This document shows, in pieces, positions 38,609 to 41,838 of a stretch of DNA of 64,000 bases. The stretch covers positions 1 through 64,000 of the forward strand of contig JANYBS010000222.1 of NCBI GenBank assembly GCA_025360715.1, given 5' to 3'. This DNA is from Candidatus Eiseniibacteriota bacterium. GTDB taxonomy: Bacteria; Eisenbacteria; RBG-16-71-46. The notes under the pieces were generated by a model, which saw nothing but the letters and a program-made list of their open reading frames with translations, searched no databases and had not been told where the DNA came from. The stretch's first letter is position 1. Each line of letters begins with the position of its first letter. A program made the translations under genes and the position numbers.

Positions 38609-39886
38609 CTAGAACGCGTTCATGGTATGCAGGAACGCCGGGCGCGCGCGGAACCATGGCTCGAGCACCTCGACGCCGCCGCGCAGGTCGTCGATCAATC
38701 CGCCCTCGGCTGCGCGCTCCGGTGTGAGCGAGCCCGCGACGATCGCCGCGAGCGCCTCGACCGGCGCGACGATCTTGGGGCCGCGCGAACCGCCCGCGCG
38801 CACGGGCTCGGGGCGTACGTGCAACTGGCCTTCGCGCGCATGCACGCGCCACGCGCGGGCATTGAGCGGCAGCACGGGGTCCGTGATCTCGATCGTGACC
38901 TCGCCGCGCGCCTGCGGCGCCACCGGGACGCGCTCGAGCGCGCCCTTCACGTCGACCAGGCGCAGCATCGCGCCGTGGCCGCTGTGGCCGCCGGTGCGCA
39001 GCACGCCCAGCTTGAGGTCGCCGCGCAGGTTGGCGGCGTCGCCCATGACCGTGGGCCAGAGCGCATCGCCGGGTGCAGCGATCACGATCTCGCTGGCCTG
39101 ATCGCGCATGCCGTGCAGGTATGCCCATAGCCCGCGGTACGCGGCGGGCGTGGACGCCATGAACTCATTCACCGTCACGATCAGCTTCCACGGGCCATCG
39201 CCCGCGTCGATCTGGTACTGCAGGTAGCCTTCGATCTGTCCGCGGCGCTTGCCCTCGTGCACGACCCAGTCACCTTCGTAGCCCCAGAGCCGCTTCTCCC
39301 ACCATTCGGCGCGGCGCGCGAGCGCCCAGTGCCCGCGCGTCTGCACCTCGCGGTTGTAAAGCTCCTGCACGGCGGGCCGGTCTGGGAGCCTTAGTCGGCG
39401 CACGCGCCGCACTTCGTCGGACGGCGGCAGCAGCGCGGGCGGCAGGCTGAGCAACTGCGGGCGCTCGATGAGCCCCCAACCGAACTTGCGGTAGAAGTCG
39501 GTGCGGAACGGATACAGCAAGCACAGCACATCGCCGCGCTGGCGCATCTCGCGCAGCGTGGCGCGCAGGAACGCTTCGGCGATGCCGCGGCGGCGATGCT
39601 CCGGCGAGACGGCGACCGAGCCGATGCCCGTGACCTGGAGCGCCTGCGTGCGCACGAACGCGTGCAGCGGATAGAGCACGAGCGAGCTCACGATCTCGCC
39701 ATCGAGTTCCCCCACGCGCACGTCGCGCAGCGTGAAGCGAGGGTGCTCGGTGAAGAACTCGCGATACGCCTCGGCGCTGCGCATGCGGTACGCGCGGTAC
39801 GAGAGCTCGGCGAGCGTATCCACGTCGGTGCGGCGCGCGGCGCGATAGCGCAATGCGGGTGCGCGCGGCGGGCGGGTGCGGGTCAT
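38609..39886 (-). CDS. Eis-like GNAT N-acetyltransferase with C-terminal SCP2-like domain
   Basis: GIGSVAVSPEHRRRGIAEAFLRATLREMRQRGDVLCLLYPFRTDFYRKFGWG. Confidence 0.92.
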   Translation of the reverse strand: MTRTRPPRAPALRYRAARRTDVDTLAELSYRAYRMRSAEAYREFFTEHPRFTLRDVRVGELDGEIVSSLVLYPLHAFVRTQALQVTGIGSVAVSPEHRRRGIAEAFLRATLREMRQRGDVLCLLYPFRTDFYRKFGWGLIERPQLLSLPPALLPPSDEVRRVRRLRLPDRPAVQELYNREVQTRGHWALARRAEWWEKRLWGYEGDWVVHEGKRRGQIEGYLQYQIDAGDGPWKLIVTVNEFMASTPAAYRGLWAYLHGMRDQASEIVIAAPGDALWPTVMGDAANLRGDLKLGVLRTGGHSGHGAMLRLVDVKGALERVPVAPQARGEVTIEITDPVLPLNARAWRVHAREGQLHVRPEPVRAGGSRGPKIVAPVEALAAIVAGSLTPERAAEGGLIDDLRGGVEVLEPWFRARPAFLHTMNAF

Positions 39887-40419
39887 CGTTTCATCTCCTC
39901 GACCAGATAGAGCGCGGCACCATCGACCTTGGAGCGCGTGATGCCGGGGCCGCGCAAGCGCTTGCCGCCACCGGTCTCGGACAACACGTTCGCAGGCTGC
40001 CACTCGGAAGTGAAGTGCGACAGGATCTCGACGCGATACCGCGCGACCGGCAGCGGGCCCATATCACCCATGAAAGGCGGCGAGCCGAACGTGCCGTGGT
40101 CCACGGTGACTTGGGTGGAGGCGACCATCGCGTTGCTCTTCATGTCGTGTACCGATACCTGGACGCGAGTGCCCTCGGGAAGGCGGGTCTTGCCGGTCAC
40201 CCGCAGCGCGCCGGTGTTCATGCGGATCAGGTCGAAGGACGCGACGAGCGGCTTGCCGTTCGTGAGGCCCGAGGTGTCGATGCCGCCGGGGAGTGTCTCG
40301 AAAGTCAGGTCCTTCTGGCCGTCGTCCGAGCCGGATCCTTGGCCGCAGCCGGCGGCGAGGCCGCCTGCCAAAAGCGCGGCGGCGAATCCGAGGAGGCCCC
40401 AGCGGGCGAGAAGGCGCAT
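39883..40419 (-). CDS. Lipoprotein of unknown function
   Basis: Lipobox LAAGC after the N-terminal hydrophobic helix. Confidence 0.75.
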   Translation of the reverse strand: MRLLARWGLLGFAAALLAGGLAAGCGQGSGSDDGQKDLTFETLPGGIDTSGLTNGKPLVASFDLIRMNTGALRVTGKTRLPEGTRVQVSVHDMKSNAMVASTQVTVDHGTFGSPPFMGDMGPLPVARYRVEILSHFTSEWQPANVLSETGGGKRLRGPGITRSKVDGAALYLVEEMKR

Positions 40420-40582
40420 GTCCGCAACTTAGCCGAGGGGGCCCGGGAGCGAAAGCGGATAAGCGTGGAAAGTGTTTCGGGACAGCACATAAGCCGAACG
40501 TCCGGGCTGACCCGGGGTGGTGCGCCGAAGATTGCATCTGCCCATGGACCCCCGGCGGGGGAAGAAATCTTCGCACCCCCCC

Positions 40583-40610
40583 TTGACGTTCTGGAGCCCC
40601 GGACACAAGT
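40583..40610 (+). promoter_or_regulatory. Candidate sigma70-type promoter upstream of the SAM-clan riboswitch
   Basis: TTGACG - ~16 nt - acaagt; predicted start lies at the 5' edge of the aptamer. Confidence 0.4.
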
Positions 40611-40619
40611 TGCATTCGT

Positions 40620-40701
40620 GCATCAAGAGCGGCCCGTTGTGAACCGGGTCCGGCAACCTGGGCGGACACCCAAGGTGCTTCCCGCGGAGACGCGGGGATG
40701 C
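40620..40701 (+). promoter_or_regulatory. SAM-clan riboswitch aptamer (SAM-I / SAM-I-IV-like)
   Basis: P1 GCATC/GATGC; ATCaAGAGcGG; P2 CGGCCCG...CGGGtCCG; core CCGGCAACC; P3 cctggg...cccaagg; GGTGCTTCC; P4 CCCGC-ggagac-GCGGG. Confidence 0.75.
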
Positions 40702-40752
40702 GGTCGAACAAGCGGCGCGAGCCGCACGACAACGAAGTGTCCACGACTCCAG

Positions 40753-40786
40753 CCCGCAGCCGATGCATTCGGCGTGCGGGTTTCTT
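40753..40786 (+). terminator. Intrinsic terminator of the riboswitch expression platform
   Basis: cccgca-gccga-tgcat-tcggc-g-tgcggg followed by tttctt. Confidence 0.75.
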
Positions 40787-40887
40787 CGTCGGTGGCGCTT
40801 CGCCCTCACAAGCGTGAGCGCGTCCTCGTGTCCAGTGCTTGTCGCGGCGGCGTCTGGGTTCCGTCCTCCACACTCGGAGGATCCCTC

Positions 40888-41268
40888 ATGTCGATCGCGC
40901 ACTCGCACCTCTCGCACTCGCAGCCCTTGCACGCGTCCGCCGCGACCGCGCTGCTGCACGCCTTCGCGCCCTGCCTGGTCACTTCGCTCGGCGCCGCCGC
41001 GCACGTGCTGTTGCTGCCGCAGTCGCTGAGCGAGCAGGCCTGTATCGCCGCGGCGCGCGCGCTGTCGAGCGCCGGCGGTCAGGCCGTGACGCTTGTGCTC
41101 GGTGCGGGCCGCGCGTGCGCGATCGACCCGCAGACGCAGGCGGTGACACCGGTGCCCGTGCCACGCCCCGCGCTGATGCGCCATGGCCTGATCGCGCCGG
41201 CGGTGGAGTTCACGCACACGCTCGAGGATGAGCTGCGGTTCTTGCGCCTGCGCGAGAGCTGCGACTGA
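40888..41268 (+). CDS. Uncharacterised 127-aa protein downstream of the SAM-clan riboswitch
   Basis: RBS cggagg, then MSIAHSHLSHSQPLHASAATALLHAF...LRLRESCD. It is the only ORF between the riboswitch and the convergent DinB gene. Confidence 0.7.
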   Translation: MSIAHSHLSHSQPLHASAATALLHAFAPCLVTSLGAAAHVLLLPQSLSEQACIAAARALSSAGGQAVTLVLGAGRACAIDPQTQAVTPVPVPRPALMRHGLIAPAVEFTHTLEDELRFLRLRESCD

Positions 41269-41289
41269 CGCGAGGCCAGGCGCGATGCA

Positions 41290-41838
41290 TCAGGCGCCGA
41301 TGCTGCGGCGCGTGCGCTCGATCTGGCCCAGGTGGCGCTCGGTGTGCGTGATGCCGAGCGCGAGCGCTTCGCCCAGGTTCATGCGGATCATTCCCAAAAT
41401 GGGCGAGCTGAGCATGGTGCGCAGGTCGGCGCCGTCGGCCTGGCGTAGGTGCTCGCCCTGGCGCGCGAGCGTAGCGAGGAACGCCTCGAACACGCCTTCG
41501 CGCACGCTCAGGGGCTGGTAGGCGCGCGGCGCCGGCTTGGGGCTCACATTGCTCTCGGCGATCGCTCCAAGCAGGAGTCGGCCGAAGAACGTGGACTTGT
41601 GGGGCCGCGGCGCGCGCTGCCGGCCGCGGGCGATCGCGGCCGGAACCGGGCTCTCGTAGCTGACGTTGGCCACCACCAGGTGCTCGAGCACCTGCGCGAT
41701 GCTCCAACCGCCATGCGGTGGCACCTGCGCCATGGCGGCGGGCGAGAGTCCGGCGATGGCGGCGCGTGCGCGCGGCTCGAGCGCCTCATAGCGGGGCGCC
41801 AGGGCGGCGAGATAGGGGTCGCGCGGGTTCATGAGCAT
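41290..41838 (-). CDS. DinB superfamily protein
   Basis: GGWSIAQVLEHLVVANVSYE ... GITHTERHLGQIERTRR. Confidence 0.9.
   Translation of the reverse strand: MLMNPRDPYLAALAPRYEALEPRARAAIAGLSPAAMAQVPPHGGWSIAQVLEHLVVANVSYESPVPAAIARGRQRAPRPHKSTFFGRLLLGAIAESNVSPKPAPRAYQPLSVREGVFEAFLATLARQGEHLRQADGADLRTMLSSPILGMIRMNLGEALALGITHTERHLGQIERTRRSIGA

Follow-up and report, generated by a model that had tools for sequence, protein, structure and literature searches.

SAM-I/IV riboswitches and the aptamer in the window

The genes controlled by SAM riboswitches usually belong to methionine or SAM metabolism, and the presence of such a switch is, for this reason, used as a guide to gene function. In the SAM-I/IV class (RF01725), P2 lacks the internal loop that is found in SAM-I and SAM-IV riboswitches (Weinberg et al. 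2010, PMC2864571). Here, we analyzed a stretch of 64,000 nucleotides from a Candidatus Eisenbacteria genome (hereafter, the window), in which a SAM-clan riboswitch preceding a single uncharacterized gene had been predicted from the DNA letters. A covariance-model check of the region returned a significant SAM-clan match, as the original prediction had proposed: RF01725 matched positions 40615–40746 of the + strand with 53.4 bits (gathering score, 41.1 bits; E = 6e-6 over the window) and across the full model (positions 1–99). This aptamer was the sole Rfam match in the window and the sole RF01725 match in its own genome. SAM-I (RF00162) was ruled out as its class, because RF01725 was the best match within the clan and a search of five genomes of the genus with RF00162 at E ≤ 0.001 was empty. 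A sub-threshold antisense match to RF02837 (18.1 bits) was taken as chance.

The helices are in agreement with this assignment. P1 can be read directly from the sequence as GCATC (40620–40624) and GATGC (40697–40701), and folding predicted a P4-type hairpin at 40681–40696, with CCCGC (40681–40685) facing GCGGG (40692–40696). In both the Rfam alignment and the predicted fold, P2 is a simple hairpin that is interrupted by a single bulge and lacks the internal loop, as is characteristic of SAM-I/IV. The P3 loop GGACAC (40664–40669) is complementary to GTGTCC in the 3' tail (40737–40742), forming the 6-bp pseudoknot of the class, which is retained by different sequences in other SAM-I/IV leaders, including those of the congeners. 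The window aptamer is, thus, a further member of the known SAM-I/IV class with an atypical target, and it presumably binds SAM.

Leader architecture and predicted switching

A sigma-70-like promoter can be read upstream of the aptamer at 40583–40611 (+), where the predicted TTGACG site (40583–40588) would be the −35 element, although the −10 element that follows a 17-nt spacer is weak (CAAGTT, 40606–40611). TTGACG-N17-CATATT occurs at the equivalent place before the aptamers of G002, one of four congeners (G001–G004) from the same Candidatus Eisenbacteria genus, and the DNA similarity between the window and G002 starts at approximately 40573 and covers the promoter and the aptamer. Downstream, folding supported the predicted intrinsic terminator at 40752–40786 (+), which has the form GCCCGCAGCCG...CGGC.GUGCGGGU followed by UUUCUU; its stem (approximately 40752–40781) formed with a probability near 1 in the fold of the full leader. 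With a weak −10 element and a short T-tract (UUUCUU), the strengths of the promoter and terminator are uncertain.

Within the terminator, GATGCAT (40762–40768) mimics the 3' strand of P1, so that the P1 5' strand, GTGCATC (40618–40624), has two alternative partners: GATGC (40697–40701) within P1 or the mimic within the terminator. Transcript folding gave two corresponding and mutually exclusive states, one with P1 and the terminator and the other with GUGCAUC::GAUGCAU. A P1 3'-strand mimic within the terminator is the usual SAM-OFF design, and the best explanation for the locus, to which we assign a probability of about 0.8, is a SAM-I/IV SAM-OFF transcription-termination switch governing a lone, lineage-specific accessory gene. 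When SAM is bound, P1 (GCAUC/GAUGC) would close, the terminator would form, and the downstream gene, which encodes 126 amino acids, would be silent. When SAM is low, the P1 5' strand would pair with the mimic in the 5' arm and loop of the terminator, and the terminator would be broken, allowing the gene to be transcribed. The direction of control is, therefore, probably SAM-OFF, and the 126-aa protein would act in the low-SAM state. The full leader was more stable with the terminator than without it (−88.1 vs −73.1), which means that switching must be co-transcriptional.

The pairing of the P1 5' strand with the terminator was present in every terminator-bearing leader of the genus (the window and three others), with the sequence altered on both sides. 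The window has GTGCATC::GATGCAT, whereas the first G001 leader has GTCATCAAG::CTTGATGAC (9 bp) and the two G002 leaders have GTCATCAAG::CTTGGTGAC (9 bp; G002a) and TCATCAAG::CTTGGTGA (8 bp; G002b). Two further G001 aptamers are without a terminator and had no pairing of this type. In the window alone, the match is not rare (six Watson–Crick pairs; shuffle P = 0.12), whereas the shuffle probabilities were 0.002–0.01 in the congener leaders, so that the case for the pairing rests on its recurrence, in which the near-identical copies G002a and G002b are both counted. The switching helix originally envisaged, between the 3' strand of P4 and the 5' arm of the terminator, was rejected: it comprises only 5 bp and was absent from the folding results, which gave the recurrent P1 5' pairing instead.

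The controlled gene encodes an orphan protein

The controlled open reading frame lies at 40888–41268 (+), with a ribosome-binding site (GGAGG, 40876–40880) preceding the ATG at 40888. Its 381 nt include the stop codon, and the product, thus, has 126 residues rather than the 127 reported earlier. The GC contents at the three codon positions were 0.72, 0.54, and 0.92, and the codon-usage score was 0.41 bits per codon, compared with 0.34–0.59 for nine neighboring genes, whereas the score was negative in all other frames. These statistics indicate that the ORF is a real coding gene. A 471-aa frame on the + strand extends through the riboswitch (39853–41268), but its upstream part does not have the codon-position pattern of a gene (0.79/0.57/0.66), which places the gene start at 40888.

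In accordance with the description of the target as uncharacterized, no Pfam or NCBIfam family scored above its cut-off, no family of known defence proteins was matched with PADLOC, and no match was found among solved structures. Homologues were likewise absent from 59 relatives, 47 genomes of the phylum, IMG/VR viral contigs, plasmids, and phages. The single-sequence AlphaFold2 model was poor (pLDDT 57.5), and the Foldseek search with it gave no usable match (best E = 0.28). We consider it highly improbable that the ORF derives from a GGDEF domain as a degenerate fragment, and the faint resemblance to this domain serves only as a lead. Although there was a weak match to GGDEF_2 (E = 0.047), GGDEF proteins were the best BLAST matches in the phylum, with E = 1e-4 per genome and 35% over 69 aa, and the predicted helix–strand–helix–strand order could fit such a fold, the GGDEF_2 score was 14.4 bits against a Pfam cut-off of 24.5 bits. 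Moreover, PF00990 was not matched, residues of the GGDEF motif were lacking, and GGDEF proteins did not feature in the list of the 50 best Foldseek matches for the low-confidence model.

A lineage-specific segment

The next gene, a DinB-like gene at 41290–41832 (−), is convergent to the 126-aa ORF, as predicted. When the region was compared with the genus by BLAST, the flanking genes were recovered in all four congeners, except for the DinB-like gene in G004, which was consequently left out of the comparison of the syntenic site. From the start of the lipoprotein gene to the end of the DinB-like gene, the distance was approximately 33–152 bp in G001, G002, and G003 but 870 bp in the window, and the DNA aligned between the window and the congeners ended at approximately 40458 and restarted at approximately 41284. 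The synteny check suggested with the original prediction, thus, showed the riboswitch–ORF pair to be absent at the syntenic site in these three congeners, and the segment of approximately 0.83 kb (40458–41284) that carries the promoter, the riboswitch, and the gene is lineage-specific. Inspection of its junctions by eye revealed no flanking repeat or transposon end, and the difference may reflect either insertion here or loss in the congeners.

The orphan status of the ORF and the absence of the segment from the congeners would also suit a relic, in which the switch has lost its original target and now precedes an inconsequential recent gene, or in which the terminated leader acts as a trans-acting small RNA. 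For the latter, there is a precedent in Listeria, where terminated SAM riboswitches act in trans. Nevertheless, we regard a relic as very unlikely, because the aptamer, terminator, and antiterminator mimic are all intact, and the ORF has good codon usage and a ribosome-binding site.

SAM-I/IV loci in the congeners

SAM-I/IV matches were found in two of the four congeners, and none were found in G003, G004, or 15 other family members searched. In G001, a tandem pair of aptamers precedes genes of 423 aa (TPR-like) and 245 aa, and the gene behind a third aptamer encodes 194 aa and has no family. In the tandem pair (L011, 10903–11233), only the first aptamer is followed by a terminator, which contains a P1 mimic. 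The G001 aptamers are flanked by genes for a DNA cytosine methylase and a Type II restriction enzyme on one side and by NYN and PDC-S02 nuclease genes on the other. The two G002 aptamers stand before a pair of near-identical genes, each of which is truncated by a contig end; their product resembles the G001 TPR protein by eye, and no Pfam family was found over its 148 aa. At the G002 loci (L013, 2069–3805, and L012), one leader is divergent from a DarT–DarG pair and the second from an NYN gene, which is followed at a greater distance by genes for PLD, Mrr, and a Schlafen-type helicase. The islands around these riboswitches are apparently phage-defence islands, and the loci together hint at a genus-level pattern in which the switch serves accessory genes.

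These neighborhoods, and the fact that the controlled genes of the congeners are TPR-like or family-less, would be expected if the riboswitch-driven genes of the genus were defence or stress effectors induced by a drop in SAM, with the window gene as a stand-alone member. The trigger might be, for example, a phage that degrades or drains SAM, or a failure of methylation capacity beside a restriction–modification system. However, no defence gene was recognized among the window genes tested, PADLOC was blank for the 126-aa ORF, islands gather unrelated cargo, and none of the papers searched connected SAM riboswitches with defence. This scenario is, therefore, quite unlikely, and we hold it similarly doubtful that the genus has recruited the SAM-I/IV promoter–riboswitch unit to sense SAM depletion, caused by a phage SAM lyase or by failing methylation, and thereby induce effectors encoded by accessory or defence-island genes, the window gene included.

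Targets of SAM-I/IV riboswitches in other genomes

A search of GTDB genomes with a DNA pattern describing the aptamer type identified 56 loci, and the pattern had no match in viral contigs. According to the translated downstream frames, which were read by eye, most of the loci to which a target could be assigned lie ahead of metX, frequently together with metY, or ahead of metK or metH; the Candidatus Eisenbacteria congeners are among the exceptions. In two further genomes, G050 (L014, 10647–15457; outside the phylum of the window) and G060 (L122, 5812–10494; Actinomycetota), SAM-I/IV precedes an operon encoding a MoxR-type AAA ATPase, a protein of approximately 130 aa, a DUF2201/VWA protein, and a divergent MetK (SAM synthetase) paralogue, and an ordinary metK is also present elsewhere in both genomes. 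The start of a riboswitch–MoxR arrangement is also seen at a contig end in L038. Pattern matches in Acidobacteria (L059, 787–2900), Planctomycetota (L057), and Chloroflexia (L062) precede genes that are unrecognizable as methionine genes; the acidobacterial locus has two consecutive cysteine-rich paralogues.

The predominance of metX, metY, metK, and metH among the identified targets is the argument that the window gene encodes an unrecognized protein of methionine/SAM homeostasis, such as a small regulator or a transport accessory. The original prediction had considered such a new member, but the searches gave this no positive support: the ORF has neither a family nor a homologue, and the switch-linked genes of the congeners occur in defence-like islands, not in methionine operons. 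A methionine or SAM target, which is usual but not defining for SAM-I/IV, was not found here, in that the tested neighbors are not met genes and nothing links the window gene to such genes, and the absence of SAM-I/IV from G003 and G004 also weighs against a role in homeostasis. We, therefore, consider such a role unlikely, although the 126-aa protein may be a small regulator, and direct methionine enzymology is unsupported for it.

Comparison with known systems

The genus breaks the rule by which SAM riboswitches point to methionine or SAM genes, with the switch preceding orphan and TPR-like genes and, in two of the three species, forming part of islands in which defence genes abound. If the controlled genes respond to SAM depletion, accessory functions would be triggered simply by the sensing of a metabolite, and the switch would offer a handle on proteins without a family.

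Compared with the described SAM-I/IV class, the window aptamer exceeds the curated cut-off, shares the conserved core (AAGAG, CCGGCAACC, and GGTGC), and has the simple P2 and the P3-loop pseudoknot, but its 3' hairpin insertion is long, at 14 nt in the Rfam alignment, and its target lies outside the known methionine/SAM genes. The metX(-metY) leaders of Acidimicrobiia and the other metK and metH leaders have the aptamer type and the pseudoknot in common with it, although they control methionine biosynthesis and the window aptamer an orphan gene. The G001 and G002 leaders (L011, L004, and L005) have targets of their own, TPR-like or family-less and situated in defence-like islands, and G001 also has a tandem aptamer pair; what they share with the window is the position of the promoter, the aptamer, and the terminator with its P1 mimic.
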